DNA of 38,736 nucleotides from Gammaproteobacteria bacterium (GTDB lineage: Bacteria > Pseudomonadota > Gammaproteobacteria > Pseudomonadales > Halieaceae). Positions 29,711-37,958 of the stretch are shown here, piece by piece. The notes under the pieces are model-generated. The model searched no databases. It was not told where the DNA came from and was given only the letters and a program-made list of their open reading frames with translations. The translations under genes were made by a program, and so were the position numbers. Position 1 is the first letter of the stretch. Each line of letters begins with the position of its first letter. The stretch lies in assembly GCA_003646405.1 (NCBI GenBank), contig QNFR01000011.1, positions 1 to 38,736 of the forward strand. Reading direction: 5' to 3'.

Positions 29711-30091
29711 CTATTTTTCTTTTTCTTCAGCGGCCTCTTCCGCAGGAGCTTCCTCTACAGGGGCTTCTTCCGCTGTGGCCTCTTCCGCGGGAATTTCCTC
29801 GGCAGGAGCTTCTTCCACTGTGGCTTCTTCTGCAGGAGCTTCCTCAGCAGGAGCCTCTTCCACGGCAGCTTCTACTTCTGCTACTTCCTCAACAGCAGCT
29901 TCCTCTGGGGGCGCTTCCCCGGCAACTGGTTCGGCAGGTAAGGCCACCTTGACCAACTCCTCCGCCACCAGAATGCGCACTTTCTCGTCTCCGTTGACCG
30001 CCTGCTTGTTGGGATCTTTAACCGCGTAACGGTCATCACCGCGCTTGTAGATACTATACTCGGCTGTTTTCTTCACCAACTTCATGGCCAT
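29711..30091 (-). CDS. small protein of unknown function with acidic Ala/Glu/Pro repeat tail
   Basis: 126 residues. Residues 1-60 form a conserved-looking basic domain (KLVKKTAEYSIYKRGDDRYAVKD, then NGDEKVRILVAEELVKV), seen to my memory in other gammaproteobacteria as an uncharacterised small protein. Residues 61-126 are low complexity: AEEAPAEEA, AEEATVEEA and similar five- to ten-residue units, strongly acidic. The DNA repeats likely vary in number between strains. AGGAG precedes ATGGCCATG. It is divergent from tRNA-Leu. No function can be stated. Confidence 0.75.
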   Translation of the reverse strand: MAMKLVKKTAEYSIYKRGDDRYAVKDPNKQAVNGDEKVRILVAEELVKVALPAEPVAGEAPPEEAAVEEVAEVEAAVEEAPAEEAPAEEATVEEAPAEEIPAEEATAEEAPVEEAPAEEAAEEKEK

Positions 30092-30844: not shown

Positions 30845-31975
30845 TCACCAAAACTCAGGAGTCTCATCACCCTTGCGCCGCCCCTGGTTCTTGCGCCGGT
30901 CCTCTTTATCGAGTTCGAATCGAATATCCTTGCGCCGCTCCTCACCGCCACGGCGGTGACCGCGGCGCTGTTCTGGCCCCATGTACTTTTTCGGCTTGCT
31001 TTTGTCCCCGCTGTACGAGGAAGGAGAGACCTCCAGCGATTCAAACTGTGCTTTACCGGGTGCACTGGAGGCCGGCTCCTCGGACAAGGGCTGATGTGGA
31101 GCGGGGGTTTCGTCCTCTTCTACGCTAAAAAAAACGCTTTCGTTCAGCAGGTTGCGGGGGGATAACTGCTCTTCCTGTAGCTCCTCTACGACGACGCGGG
31201 CATCCGCCACGGTAACCTTATGGCGCTGCTCAACAAAAGCATGCAGCAACAGGCGGTTACAAATCAGGTTGATGCGGCGCGGTATGCCCTCGCTGAACAG
31301 GTAAATAACGGAAAACACCCGCGGACTGATTTGTGGGTCATTATTCCAGCCCACCACATTCAGCCTGTGCTCCACGTAGCCCCGTGTCTCCTCCTCTTTC
31401 AGGGCCTTGAGATGACTGGCGGCGATGATGCGTTGATACACCGGCTCGAGCGACTTATCCTGCATGATATCCCGCAGCTCGGGCTGACCAAGCAAAAAGA
31501 TTTGCAGCAATGGCCTGTTACCGTGCTGCAGGTTGGTCAGCAGTCGCAACTCTTCCATCGCCCGTGATTTCAAATCCTGGGCCTCATCCACGATCAGCAG
31601 GGCGCGCCGGCCATCTTTATCCCAGGCAAGAAATTCCGTTTTCAGCTCTTCCAGAATCGTTGATTTATCGATTTCCTTCGCTTTCACATCAAAGGAAAAG
31701 GCGACCGAGCGCAGCAGGTCGTCCTCGGCCAGCTGGGTGCTCACCAAGTTGGCCACAACGACATTTTCCCCCGCCAGGTACTCGAGGAGGTCACCAATCA
31801 GGGTGGTTTTACCGGTCCCGGGCGGCCCTGTCACCAGGACAAAGCCTTCCGCGCGCCTGAAGGCATAGGCCATATAGGCCTTGGCTTTGGCGAAGTGGGC
31901 GTGTTTGTAGCAGAAACGATGATCCGGGCTGAGCCGGAAGGGGTCTGCGGTCAAATTGAAAAAGCGTTCATACAT
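30845..31975 (-). CDS. ExeA/GspA-type AAA+ ATPase with Arg-Arg-rich tail
   Basis: 376 residues. N-terminus MYERFFNLTADPFRLSPD is typical of ExeA/GspA-like ATPases, which are also found in type II secretion and exopolysaccharide (PEP-CTERM/XrtA) loci. Walker A is GPPGTGKTT (50-58), Walker B is LLIVDEAQ (Asp130, Glu131), and a sensor region includes IFLLGQPELRDIM; SEGIPRRINLICNRLLLHAF ends the AAA domain near residue 265. The last ~45 residues are very basic: QRRGHRRGGEERRK and DRRKNQGRRKGD. No ExeB or secretin gene is adjacent. The role is unassigned; it may couple ATP use to an envelope process. Confidence 0.85.
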   Translation of the reverse strand: MYERFFNLTADPFRLSPDHRFCYKHAHFAKAKAYMAYAFRRAEGFVLVTGPPGTGKTTLIGDLLEYLAGENVVVANLVSTQLAEDDLLRSVAFSFDVKAKEIDKSTILEELKTEFLAWDKDGRRALLIVDEAQDLKSRAMEELRLLTNLQHGNRPLLQIFLLGQPELRDIMQDKSLEPVYQRIIAASHLKALKEEETRGYVEHRLNVVGWNNDPQISPRVFSVIYLFSEGIPRRINLICNRLLLHAFVEQRHKVTVADARVVVEELQEEQLSPRNLLNESVFFSVEEDETPAPHQPLSEEPASSAPGKAQFESLEVSPSSYSGDKSKPKKYMGPEQRRGHRRGGEERRKDIRFELDKEDRRKNQGRRKGDETPEFW

Positions 31976-32131: not shown

Positions 32132-33463
32132 CTAATTGAGAATGCCCTGGTAAACCGGCAGGCGGGCGATGCGCTGGTCGATCAAGGCAACCTGTTTCCG
32201 ATAGTTCTCCGATTGGGTGCTGCCGTACTGCCGGCGGAATTGCACGTCGCTCAAACCCTCAGCCAATCCTGAAATATCCGGAAAAAAGGCAGCTTCACTA
32301 TTATTTGCAACAATGCCCTGCTGCAACCGTCGCGCAGCCGGTTCGTTGGACGTTGCGGTGGTGACAAACTGAACACCGGCCCGGTCCGCGGCGAGGTCGG
32401 CAAAACTGAAACCGCTGCCACCGTTCCCGGAATCCAGCAGTTCCTTGAATTCTCCCGCCGCGATACCAATCCCCTGCTGGGTGGCCAGGGTGATGCCGGC
32501 GGAATAGATGAAGTGCGCCATCAGATCCCTCCGGCCGCCCAGGGTAACCCCGGAGGGTGGGCGGACCAGGGCACGCTGACTGGAGACCAGATCACCCACC
32601 AGCGTCTCAAATTCGCCGTAACTGAAGTAGATGGTGAGCGCCCATATCACTGCGCGATTCTCCGCAACCGCAGAGCTGCGCTCCCGGCGATTTGCCGCTG
32701 CAACCATAAGGGGAGTCAGATAGGCACTGAGTGAGCGCCCGCTGTGATCCCCTTGCTCTGCGAGCCTGACCAGGTATTCGTAGTACTGTACAACACGCTC
32801 TTGCTCCCCGGGCGGAAACCGGGAGGCTTGCAGCGTTTTTACCGCCTGCTTGAACTGCGCTTTCACATCGGACGGAGGCTGCACCCTGAGCAGGGCTGTA
32901 TCCCCCTCAATACGAAACCCGCGAACACTGGCGAGCAACAAACTGGCTTGCTGATCCTGTAACACTGTATCTGCCAAATAGGCTATCAGTGGCAATAGCC
33001 ATCGCCCCGGCAAGTTCAGGGGGCCTATGGATAGCCGATCGATGTTAATCCCTTCGCTGGACTGCTCGACCTGAAAAACAAGATTGAGATAGTCACCGAC
33101 TGGATTCGGAATCAGCCGCAAGCTCATACGGGAATTGATGGTAGCCCCATCAAAGTAAACATCGGTATCAAGACGCGCAAAGGTATGGGAGCCCAGCTGC
33201 GCAAGATGCCTGAGCTCGCCCTCGGTGACGGCCAGTGTAGTACCGCTTGCATCAGCAGATTCAACCTGAAGGACGATTCGCTGCAGCAGGGCCTTACCGG
33301 CGGCGACGGTTCCGGAATCGACAGGGGCGCTTTGGCGTACCAGCGGCTCCTTCTCCACGACGTAAAAAACCAGGGCTACTGTTGCAGTAACAATCAGCGC
33401 CGGCAGGAGAATCGCAAAAACAATAGTCAAACAAAGTGCTTTAAGCATGGTGGAGGCGGCCAC
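32132..33463 (-). CDS. membrane-anchored protein of unknown function (443 residues)
   Basis: One N-terminal hydrophobic segment (about 8-36) anchors a long extracytoplasmic part. Residues 45-195 look like a beta-rich domain, 200-280 are helical, and the C-terminal third holds AHFIYSAGITLATQQGIGIAAGEFKELLD, GGSGFSFADLAADRAGVQF and FPDISGLAEGLSDVQFRRQYG. I recall this C-terminal signature in uncharacterised gammaproteobacterial proteins but can assign no activity. Starts are GTG 33463 or ATG 33448; neither has a Shine-Dalgarno sequence, because a palindromic element ends seven bases upstream. It lies 156 bases upstream of the ATPase on the same strand. Confidence 0.75.
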   Translation of the reverse strand: MAASTMLKALCLTIVFAILLPALIVTATVALVFYVVEKEPLVRQSAPVDSGTVAAGKALLQRIVLQVESADASGTTLAVTEGELRHLAQLGSHTFARLDTDVYFDGATINSRMSLRLIPNPVGDYLNLVFQVEQSSEGINIDRLSIGPLNLPGRWLLPLIAYLADTVLQDQQASLLLASVRGFRIEGDTALLRVQPPSDVKAQFKQAVKTLQASRFPPGEQERVVQYYEYLVRLAEQGDHSGRSLSAYLTPLMVAAANRRERSSAVAENRAVIWALTIYFSYGEFETLVGDLVSSQRALVRPPSGVTLGGRRDLMAHFIYSAGITLATQQGIGIAAGEFKELLDSGNGGSGFSFADLAADRAGVQFVTTATSNEPAARRLQQGIVANNSEAAFFPDISGLAEGLSDVQFRRQYGSTQSENYRKQVALIDQRIARLPVYQGILN

Positions 33464-34822: not shown

Positions 34823-35257
34823 CTAAGCCGCCACCCAGTCGCTGGCGCGGCGGCCTCTGTCCGCACGGCGGTCCAGGCTCCCGGAGAAGCCAAGAAAACC
34901 TTCCCCGGCAGGGTGAACTCCACGTCGATCTCCATTACCACGACGTCGATCCACGTGGTGAATATACCTGCAATTACAGTTTGTTGCGCTGCAAGCTTCC
35001 AGCGGCAGGCCGGGCGCCTGCTCGCTCAGGAAACGCTGCCCCCTGATTGACTCCGCCGCCAGGCAGGAATTCGAAGAGGGGTGGATGGATACTGCATGAA
35101 ACGGATTGCCTGCCCTACTACTGGACCTTCGGTCAACTTTATCTACCCTACGCGTATTGGATTTCCCATAGGCGGGTTTTGACTTAGCCGGAAACACTAT
35201 CCTCAGGAGCACAAACCCGACGACCAGGGCCAGAACAAATAGACTAGCAATCTGCAT
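34823..35257 (-). CDS. small anchored protein with Cys cluster and Arg-Arg motifs (paralogue 1)
   Basis: 144 residues from ATG 35257 (GGAA six bases upstream; GTG 35284 also possible). Residues 1-20 form a membrane anchor (IASLFVLALVVGFVLLRIVF). The rest is soluble: VDRRSSS, PFHAVSIHPSSNSCLAAESI, RFLSEQAPGLPLEACSATNC, then NCRYIHHVDRRRGNGDRR and, at the end, LDRRADRGRRASDW. The Cys-x4-Cys-x-Cys plus His cluster could bind a metal. A second copy of this module is at 37638-37958. No function is known to me. Confidence 0.75.
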   Translation of the reverse strand: MQIASLFVLALVVGFVLLRIVFPAKSKPAYGKSNTRRVDKVDRRSSSRAGNPFHAVSIHPSSNSCLAAESIRGQRFLSEQAPGLPLEACSATNCNCRYIHHVDRRRGNGDRRGVHPAGEGFLGFSGSLDRRADRGRRASDWVAA

Positions 35258-35636
35258 AATGATTTCCACACGGTTGCGGGGCACGAATTAGCGGAATCAT
35301 TTCCATCATCTTTACATATTAGTAGCAAAATTCCATTGTGCGAGAAATTTTTATCGCCTTTTCAAAGACCCGGCTGCTTTCGTCACGCTGAGGCCAGTAT
35401 AACGCTCCAAACCCAGGCCTGCAATTAGTGGTATCAGGCCCCAAGATATTACTATTTGGTATTTTATTAATAAAAGTACATTCTAGTTTGATATAACATG
35501 TCGTACTTGCTAGCATGCAAAGGAAAGGTATTTGGTGGGTGTCCCCAACTGGAAAGGGTATGCCGAGTGCTGGCAATACTTGTGAATTGCGGCCAGGAAC
35601 CAAATAAACACAAGACGGGACGGCAATCGGGGGCGG
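35258..35636. other. AT-rich divergent gap
   Basis: About 380 bases between the divergent small protein and coiled-coil genes. No gene is seen; the stretch 35440-35510 is very AT-rich (TTTATTAATAAAAG palindrome at 35462-35475) and is a plausible promoter region for the coiled-coil gene. Confidence 0.4.
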
Positions 35637-37229
35637 ATGAAAACATTCGATCTCACCTTCAAGGGGACAGTGCTCCCCAAACATGACCCGAGGCACGTGA
35701 AAGCGCGCTTCGCGCAATTGTTTTGCATCGAAGATCTCTCAGTGATCGAAGAACTTTTTTCAGGCGAGACCATCATCCTGCGCAGCGACCTGGATCGCAA
35801 ATCCGCCGCTGAATACTTCAGGAAAATCACGCAATTGGGAGGCGAAGCTGAACTAATCGAATCGGCAGAGCAGCACACTACCCCTGGACAGCCAACCGTA
35901 AAACTTGAGCAGGACGCTGCCTCCACACCACGAATTATCCGGGAAAAGACGTCCGGATACGGCATGGACCGAGAGATACTGATACGCCGCAAGGGAGAGA
36001 TCGACCAGAGCTGGCCAGTCAGCTCCTCCCGTATGGATCGCCAGCGCCAGGAGAGCACAGCAAAAAAAGAACAGCAAAAGGCCGAGGAGTTAGCGAAACA
36101 ACAGCGGCAGCGGGAGCAAGAGCAGGAAGCAGCGCGCAGGACAGCAGAGGAACACGCCATACGCATCAAAGCGGAGGATGCCGCCCAGGTGCAAGCGGCG
36201 GAAATCCGCAGGTCGGAGCAGCTGGAACAGGAGCGACTGACGGCAGCGCATGCAGCGCAGCAGCAGGCACTCGCCGACGCAGAACAACGCACTGCGCAGG
36301 AGAAAGCCCAACGGGAAGCCCAGGAAAAAGCCCGGGGGAAAGCCCAGCGCGAAGCCCGCATAAGGCAAGTCATAGAGAGTGCCGAACAGGAATTAGCCGG
36401 CCTGCAGGTGCTGGCACAACAGGCCGAAAAGAAAGCAGAGGAAAAAGCTGCCAGGTTCGGGCAACAGGAAAAAGAGCTCCGCCTCAAAACCGAAGAGGAA
36501 ATCGCCGGCATCAAGGAAATGGGCATTACAGCCAGCGGCAAAATCCAGGACGAAATAGCCAGACTGAAGAAATTGGAGCTGCAAACCAGCCGCAATGCCG
36601 ACGTTGAGATCGACAAACTGAAAGAGCTGGAACAACAGCGCCACAGCCAGGCGGACCATGAAATCGCCCAACTGGAGAAGTTGCAGCAGGAGCACCGTAT
36701 CCGCGCGAAAGAACAAATCACCCAACTCGAAAAAAGCAGGCAGGAAACCCAGCGCCAAGCCGATGAAGAGATCAAGCGACTGGAACAACTCCTGCACGAT
36801 ACCCGCCGTCAAGCTGAAATTGATATAACCGAACTGCAAGAACAGGAAAACGCCGTCAGTGCCAGGGCGGAGCATGAAATGGCACAGCTGGAGGAGCAGA
36901 GAACCGCAACTTTGCGCACCGAGAAGCAGGAAATCCACAAATGGCAGGAACGGCATGAGGCAACCAACCAGAAAGCCGAAGAGGACATTGCCGAACTAAA
37001 ACAGCTGCAACTGAAAATCAGCCATAAAAACGCTGCGGAATTGGACAGGTTACAGGGCATGGAATTAGATGTTATCCAGCAATGTGAAATAACAAAAACC
37101 CAGCTACAACAGGCCGACGCCAAAGCCAGGCAACAGGCCGAGGCGGAATTGAAGCGATTGCAGGCGTTGCAGCAGGACGTCAAACGCCGCGAAACCAAAG
37201 CTCTCACCCAAATAAGAAACGGCAAATAA
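35637..37229 (+). CDS. 530-residue coiled-coil protein with exact 18-residue repeats
   Basis: Residues 1-80 (MKTFDLTFKGTVLPKHDPRH, FAQLFCIEDLSVIEELFSGE) form a small alpha/beta domain that I recall at the N-terminus of various gammaproteobacterial proteins. Residues about 140-248 are charged helix rich in Gln, Glu and Ala. From residue 249 (base 36381) to the end come 15 complete repeats of exactly 18 residues and one of 12, with pattern A-x-x-E-I-x-x-L-x-x-L and charged remainder, such as ADHEIAQLEKLQQEHRIR. No signal peptide or membrane segment is seen, so it is probably cytosolic. The VanZ-like gene starts at once after its stop. Function unknown; a rod-like spacer or scaffold is likely. 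Confidence 0.85.
   Translation: MKTFDLTFKGTVLPKHDPRHVKARFAQLFCIEDLSVIEELFSGETIILRSDLDRKSAAEYFRKITQLGGEAELIESAEQHTTPGQPTVKLEQDAASTPRIIREKTSGYGMDREILIRRKGEIDQSWPVSSSRMDRQRQESTAKKEQQKAEELAKQQRQREQEQEAARRTAEEHAIRIKAEDAAQVQAAEIRRSEQLEQERLTAAHAAQQQALADAEQRTAQEKAQREAQEKARGKAQREARIRQVIESAEQELAGLQVLAQQAEKKAEEKAARFGQQEKELRLKTEEEIAGIKEMGITASGKIQDEIARLKKLELQTSRNADVEIDKLKELEQQRHSQADHEIAQLEKLQQEHRIRAKEQITQLEKSRQETQRQADEEIKRLEQLLHDTRRQAEIDITELQEQENAVSARAEHEMAQLEEQRTATLRTEKQEIHKWQERHEATNQKAEEDIAELKQLQLKISHKNAAELDRLQGMELDVIQQCEITKTQLQQADAKARQQAEAELKRLQALQQDVKRRETKALTQIRNGK
36381..37226 (+). repeat. 15 tandem 54-bp coding repeats (18 residues each)
   Basis: The repeats keep an exact 54-base period with no insertion or deletion, although the DNA copies are diverged. 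Consensus first half is A-(D/E)-x-E-I-x-x-L-x-x-L. Examples are ADVEIDKLKELEQQRHSQ, ADEEIKRLEQLLHDTRRQ and AEAELKRLQALQQDVKRR. Confidence 0.9.
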
Positions 37230-37619
37230 ATGTTACCGCCTCGTTGGCGTATTTTCCTACCTGTGGGATATATGGCTTTCCTGCTTCTGCTGTCATCCAT
37301 TCCCGGTGATACACCGCCCGACAACCTGGTGGGGATGGTGTTTCGGTGGGTTGAACCCGGTTGGCAGAACCTGCTGCATGTCCCACTCTATGCAGGATTG
37401 ACCGCGTGTTGGCTGTGGGCTCTGGCCGGGTATCCGCTGGGCCATCGCTACCGCCTGGCCACCGCCTTTGTGCTGACTGTGCTGTGGGCGATCGTGGATG
37501 AAACCTACCAGATGGGTGTCCCCGGACGATATGGATCACTGACAGACCTGGCACTGAATATGCTCGGGGCCTGCTGCGCAATCATGTATGCCAACCATAG
37601 AGTCACGCGCGACAGCTAA
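37230..37619 (+). CDS. VanZ-like membrane protein
   Basis: 129 residues with about four hydrophobic segments. SSIPGDTPPDN in the first loop, then WQNLLHVPLYAGLTACW and AIVDETYQMGVPGRYGSLTDLALNMLGACC, the latter matching the DE-x-x-Q...R-x-x-S-x-x-D-x-x-x-N-x-x-G signature of VanZ-like proteins. The family includes the teicoplanin-resistance accessory protein but most members are uncharacterised. It starts directly after the coiled-coil gene stop (TAA ATG), so the two are probably cotranslated. Confidence 0.85.
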   Translation: MLPPRWRIFLPVGYMAFLLLLSSIPGDTPPDNLVGMVFRWVEPGWQNLLHVPLYAGLTACWLWALAGYPLGHRYRLATAFVLTVLWAIVDETYQMGVPGRYGSLTDLALNMLGACCAIMYANHRVTRDS

Positions 37620-37637: not shown

Positions 37638-37958
37638 ATGGCACTGACTCAAGCGAAATACCACGGTCTCCGCGCCGCCGTACAATCCGTCGGCAACACG
37701 AGGTTTCTTTCCTCGGGGAATGTGCCAAAACTTCCATTAGCAGATTGCGCCTCAACGGCATGCAATTGCAGTTATATTCGTCATGAGGATCGACGCACTT
37801 CGCAGGGGGATCGAAGGGCACCCTTCAGTATACGAACGGATCTATATAACCTTGCCACGGAGTCGGAACGCCGCGTAAAAAAAGGCCGTCGCGAGAGTGA
37901 CTGGTCAGGCAACGCCGCATCAGATTTGGATTACGCAGATTTTGAGTGGACAACCTGA
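37638..37958 (+). CDS. small protein with Cys cluster and Arg-Arg motifs (paralogue 2)
   Basis: 106 residues, 18 bases after the VanZ-like gene. KYHGLRAAVQSVGNTRFLSS, PKLPLADCASTACNCSYIRH, EDRRTSQGDRR and SERRVKKGRRESDW match paralogue 1 at 34823-35257 position by position. It lacks the N-terminal membrane anchor of paralogue 1. The DNA of the Cys/His core is also similar, pointing to duplication. Function unknown. Confidence 0.7.
   Translation: MALTQAKYHGLRAAVQSVGNTRFLSSGNVPKLPLADCASTACNCSYIRHEDRRTSQGDRRAPFSIRTDLYNLATESERRVKKGRRESDWSGNAASDLDYADFEWTT

Follow-up and report, generated by a model that had tools for sequence, protein, structure and literature searches.

Architecture of the rod protein

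The window analyzed here, a stretch of 38,736 nucleotides, originates from a marine gammaproteobacterium of the family Halieaceae (assembly GCA_003646405.1, contig QNFR01000011.1). It carries a gene for a protein that consists of a head, a linker and a long rod, and this gene is directly followed by that of a VanZ-like membrane protein (Table 1). Neither Pfam nor NCBIfam yielded a family match for the rod protein. The protein is new and undescribed, is restricted to its family as far as searched, and joins a small globular head to a long helical rod. Prediction revealed no transmembrane segment (the highest mean hydropathy over 19 residues was 0.98) and a cytosolic location is the best reading.

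Table 1. Features of the rod protein gene and of the gene that follows it
Feature	Position in the window	Strand	Basis
Rod protein, open reading frame (P0001), 530 aa	35637..37229	+	no Pfam or NCBIfam match; 13 same-family orthologues
Head domain at the N-terminus, residues 1-75, with the beta-alpha-alpha-beta-alpha-beta fold of ClpS and the L7/L12 C-terminal domain	35637..35861	+	AlphaFold2, structure comparison, weak L7/L12 profile matches
Variable linker, residues 76-248	35862..36380	+	orthologue comparison; low AlphaFold2 pLDDT at 105-142
Linear motif of the linker, YGMDREILIRRKGEIDQSWPVSSSR, core DQSWPVS	35958..36032	+	sequence
Rod, fifteen 18-residue units, residues 249-518, 3.60 residues/turn	36381..37190	+	periodicity, orthologues, AlphaFold2
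Repeat 8, residues 375-392, exact center of the rod, highest conservation, includes Leu382	36759..36812	+	alignment, AlphaFold2
Partial sixteenth unit/C-terminal tail, 12 residues, followed by the stop codon	37191..37226	+	repeat layout
VanZ-like membrane protein, start codon abuts the stop codon of the rod protein	37230..37619	+	PF04892 (2.5e-9), NF037970

Structural modeling was carried out with AlphaFold2 for the monomer on the basis of 11 sequences (pTM 0.40). The head was modeled with a pLDDT of 87.8 and its predicted fold is that of ClpS and of the C-terminal domain of L7/L12. Structure comparison gave a Z of 9.1 with the L7/L12 domain (1ctf; rmsd 2.0 over 68 residues, 16% identity) and a Z of 8.7 with ClpS. 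The predicted fold of the head is thus that of L7/L12 and ClpS. Sequence identity is low and Pfam does not recognize the head; the rod protein of the window gave no match to Ribosomal_L12 (PF00542). Among 28 relatives of the head, 14 matched this family weakly, at E-values up to 1 (best 9.7e-5). Related heads form the N-terminus of many Pseudomonadales proteins of varied architecture; this ClpS/L7-L12-like domain (L063-L086) is joined to varied membrane or repeat-rich tails and has no Pfam family of its own. A domain of this type is a widespread N-terminal head in Pseudomonadales that the family libraries used here do not describe.

The linker contains a long charged stretch rich in Ala, Glu, Gln and Arg (residues 141-248), and pLDDT was low at residues 105-142. 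The linker is probably disordered, and its length varies among the orthologues. The linear motif (GMDxEI...DQSWPVS) also occurs in several orthologues and in some long membrane paralogues.

Periodicity and geometry of the rod

The original prediction had described fifteen exact 18-residue coiled-coil repeats with no indel breaking the 54-base period. Here, we found that fifteen consecutive units do run in register and gap-free through residues 249-518 of the open reading frame. In a BLOSUM autocorrelation, similarity at lag 18 reached z=10.4, a value that none of 1,000 shuffles attained, and the peaks at lags 36 and 54 were equally strong. At lags 7 and 11 no peak was seen (lag 11, z=-1.0), so that the rod lacks hendecad periodicity. 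Hydrophobic power peaked at harmonics of 18 (18/7, 18/6 and 18/5), and the helical period was 3.60 residues per turn. In the window protein, a unit typically opens with A-E-x-E-I and has Leu as its eighth residue. Neighboring units share 26% identity, and Tandem Repeats Finder detected no 54-base array at the DNA level over the rod. These data indicate that the repeats are old and that only their period is exact: number, register and period of the units were as predicted, but they are strongly diverged and not exact copies.

When the rod sequences of the family were pooled, position 8 was hydrophobic in 97-99% and position 5 in 78-84% of the cases; positions 1 and 15 were occupied by Ala, Leu, Thr or Val, and positions 11 and 12 shared one role. 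Five core positions per 18 residues correspond to 3.60 residues per turn, which approaches the 3.63 residues per turn of an undistorted helix (PMC4786415). For this reason, the rod should form a nearly straight coiled coil, as had been anticipated. From these values we estimate a supercoil of about -0.8 degrees per residue and a pitch of 65 nm, as compared with 15 nm for heptads, and the 270 residues should span about 40 nm if extended (40.5 nm computed). AlphaFold2 modeled residues 223-382 and 387-527 as helices, mostly with pLDDT values of 84-97, and predicted the rod as confident helix instead of the disorder that would have spoken against a coiled coil.

The top profile match of the rod in the PDB was 4tql (E 4.6e-5), a designed three-helix bundle which we take to have been made untwisted. 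In contrast, the rod is a natural array of fifteen units in one helix that is attached to a head. When the rod alone was searched by phmmer against the PDB, no match was obtained. Coiled coils of the 18/5 type have been described as heptads with a delocalized stutter (PMC4786415), and the known coiled-coil periods include 18 (PMC5344682). At the sequence level the rod is such an octadecad, with 18 residues per five turns. Our literature search gave no match for natural octadecad or 18-residue-repeat proteins, which does not in itself establish the rarity of such rods. Most long natural coiled coils have been described as heptad- or hendecad-based.

Conservation of register and length

Searching 140 genomes of the family, we selected 13 further rod proteins by open-frame length and architecture. 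The names of ten of them include Haliea, Halioglobus, Pseudohalioglobus, Seongchinamella and HTCC2148, and all 13 appear to belong to Halieaceae. In 294 genomes of the order, a profile search located full rods in this family only, and head domains alone elsewhere. For all 13 orthologues the strongest lags were multiples of 18 (18, 36, 54, 72) and the best helical period was between 3.59 and 3.605. The multiple alignment showed no gap across the rod (residues 249-518) in 10 of the 13; L040 had a gap of one position, L045 of two, and L034 was shorter by 21 positions at the ends, with most of repeat 1 and the final portion absent. This near-constancy contrasts with a mean identity of 24% (minimum 12%) in the rod, compared with 58% in the head.

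In a leave-one-out scan, the phase was constant along the full length of each sequence except in scattered windows of low score. A deliberately permissive Viterbi fit introduced local slips in some orthologues, but these mostly compensated each other. Thus, the pattern is imperfect locally and coherent globally. Gaps do appear in the rod when sequences are aligned pairwise with ordinary gap costs, and at 24% identity such alignments are too noisy for counting indels. HMMs built from single subclades, which are less tied to the multiple alignment, aligned distant members indel-free in several cases (W, 215 and 244 residues; L045, 262; L032, 267); they also gave some shifted alternative matches, as is to be expected for repeats. 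Across species, repeats of the same number scored 15.8, whereas repeats of different number scored 7.2. Since repeat k resembles repeat k elsewhere, the fifteen-unit array was already present in the common ancestor and there has been no turnover of repeats.

Lengths vary in related regions: the linker comprises 41-173 residues, and the coils of the long paralogues 144-723 residues where a transmembrane helix was found. A constant length is therefore particular to this rod. The orthologues retained the period and essentially the length despite their low identity, and no irregular repeat lengths were found among them (n=13). Judged from the sequences, the register of the rod is under selection, which agrees with the original prediction.

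The long Halieaceae paralogues share the head, the 18-residue repeats and in some cases the DQSW-type motif with the rod protein. They differ from it by an Ala/Glu/Lys-rich coil of variable total length, a subsequent transmembrane helix and a large domain that looks extracytoplasmic. Paralogues with such a large C-terminal domain include G000:C83:4091 (L002), L006, L017, L019, L022, L024 and L062, and in L023 the period is 16 residues instead of 18. The genome of the window encodes one long head-bearing paralogue (G000:C83), and every other rod-bearing genome except G118 contains at least one. It is these paralogues that resemble TolA, with its long Ala/Glu/Lys/Arg-rich helical middle, and a sub-threshold match to the TolA profile was seen in the paralogue of the window only. 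TolA has an N-terminal membrane anchor, but the rod protein has none.

The central repeat and chain orientation

Repeat 8 is the exact middle of the fifteen units and had the highest same-number score (29.3). Leu382, which it includes, is the sole rod residue that is invariant in all 14 sequences. At this site the AlphaFold2 monomer contains a helix break (residues 383-386), with pLDDT falling to 58 at residues 381-390. Break and conservation fit either an antiparallel dimer centered on repeat 8 or a hairpin, in which the rod would fold back on itself to about 20 nm like SMC arms or the cytoplasmic domains of chemoreceptors, perhaps as part of a four-helix bundle, and bind a partner with its conserved tip. 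The closest structures of the model point in the latter direction, since they are a chemoreceptor hairpin (2ch7, Z 14.9) and SMC coils (5xg2, Z 12.5; 5nnv, Z 12.2), but Z-values below about 13 carry no information for long helices. The rod protein gave no Pfam match to the MCP signaling domain, and the likeness to chemoreceptors is one of generic model shape only. AlphaFold2 is inclined to fold long coils back. Moreover, repeat 8 is free of Gly and Pro in 14 of 14 sequences, and the sequence around it (LEQLLHDTRRQ-like) is strongly helix-forming. The residue contacts of a hairpin are identical to those of an antiparallel homodimer, so that a monomer model does not discriminate between the two. 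We therefore favor an antiparallel dimer with a continuous helix and regard the hairpin as rather doubtful.

A parallel in-register dimer that builds filaments or meshworks would be analogous to the cytoskeletal rods FilP and Scy of Streptomyces. With Ile at position 5 and Leu at position 8, the units recall canonical a/d packing, and FilP and Scy are likewise long bacterial cytosolic rods whose dimers have non-heptad, low-twist periods and Ala-rich cores (PMC9858780). They come, however, from other phyla, are built of hendecads instead of 18-mers and start with a DivIVA-like motif, for which the rod protein has no Pfam match. In the window protein, in-register parallel charge pairing ranked 293 of 301 registers, among the worst, and a parallel arrangement gives no obvious reason for a special center at repeat 8. 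We consider such a dimer unlikely. Charge complementarity peaked near i+j=769, which corresponds to an antiparallel arrangement, but 49 of 200 repeat permutations reached the same value; the charge pattern thus agrees in direction with an antiparallel dimer but does not exceed this null. It is highly improbable that the rod lies as a continuous amphipathic helix on a membrane, a lipid droplet or a storage granule. Its stripe runs straight (3.60 residues per turn), as in apolipoprotein-like helices, and apolipoproteins A-I and A-IV gave weak profile matches (E 0.005-0.06), but the rod is too polar for such a role and its stripe is not wide enough, with a mean hydrophobicity of about 0.05, a mean moment of 0.24-0.30, almost no aromatic residues and a mostly net negative charge.

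A possible role as spacer or scaffold

The rod, its conserved length and the fold of the head are well supported. On this basis, our leading though still tentative reading, which we hold with a little less than even confidence, is that of a cytosolic protein, restricted to Halieaceae as searched, in which a head, a disordered linker and a near-straight coiled-coil rod of fifteen units form a spacer or scaffold of fixed length, most likely antiparallel. Two chains would pair via a stripe of Leu, Ile and Ala at positions 1, 5, 8, 11/12 and 15, most probably antiparallel about repeat 8. The abundance of Ala in the core is compatible with a non-heptad dimer of the kind described for FilP and Scy (PMC9858780). 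The product would be a stiff dumbbell of about 40 nm with one flexibly tethered head near each end, and the rod may thus serve to keep head-bound partners at a set distance.

A role as spacer or scaffold is the most economical reading of a conserved length with free sequence, in analogy to the coiled-coil arms of SMC proteins, in which length but not sequence is under selection (PMC5344682). This combination is the signature of few proteins, and SMC helices are antiparallel, as proposed here for the rod. In contrast to the rod protein, SMC proteins have an ATPase head and a hinge, and their heptad arms fall into several length modes; the window protein had no Pfam or NCBIfam match to the SMC ATPase head or hinge, and one orthologue scored 17.7 bits at a cut-off of 567. 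Number and spacing of the units have remained unchanged in the relatives of the rod protein while most of the sequence changed, and for this reason it is probably a molecular spacer of set length.

The proposal of a "scaffold or ruler" made in the original prediction is plausible. A true protein ruler, i.e., an untwisted antiparallel dimer of 40 nm in which exactly fifteen units space two heads, and which is derived from membrane proteins with variable coils, appears somewhat unlikely to us. Since the length of the rod can be counted in equal 18-residue units, this idea is directly testable. If correct, designed untwisted bundles would have a natural and uniform equivalent in this protein, which would represent a new class of cytosolic spacer in bacteria.

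Genomic neighborhood

The position of the rod next to a VanZ-like membrane protein had been taken as a hint of a scaffold or ruler. Around the other 13 rod genes, the flanks examined (on either side up to about 19 kb further, contigs allowing) contained no VanZ gene. Within these flanks VanZ is near the rod gene of the window only, and a VanZ partnership is not supported. Nor was an operon partner conserved across the neighborhoods examined, and the surroundings differ: about half of the rod genes have queA/tgt on one side, others a heptose/glycosyltransferase operon or genes for UDP-sugar dehydrogenase. In L032, L033, L035, L036, L040 and L045, the rod gene adjoins an operon of the D-glycero-D-manno-heptose type (GHMP kinase, SIS isomerase, glycosyltransferases), in some cases with 3' to 3' overlap. 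This operon was rejected as a general partner, as it is convergent or merely neighboring and confined to a single subclade.

The window also encodes an ATPase (30845-31975, minus strand) that resembles those associated with XrtA/PEP-CTERM systems (TIGR03015, 312.8 bits at a cut-off of 324.5). Together with the surroundings of some orthologues it hinted at a link to such a system, but we discarded this candidate since the exosortase XrtA was found neither in the genome of the window nor in several other rod genomes. Two small open reading frames nearby end in tails similar to the C-terminal tail of the ATPase (RR...GRR...D...W). The rod and VanZ genes are flanked by the genes of two small, mutually related proteins that have a CNC and a DRR/GDRR motif (34823-35284, minus strand; 37638-37958, plus strand); in L034, L040 and L045, relatives of these proteins adjoin the rod gene. 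A protein of 443 residues without a Pfam match is encoded at 32132-33463 (minus strand), and a relative with 31% identity adjoins the rod gene in L034. Finally, a tandem repeat of 45 bases with a 15-base sub-unit occupies positions 29732-29899 within the open reading frame 29711-30091 (minus strand).
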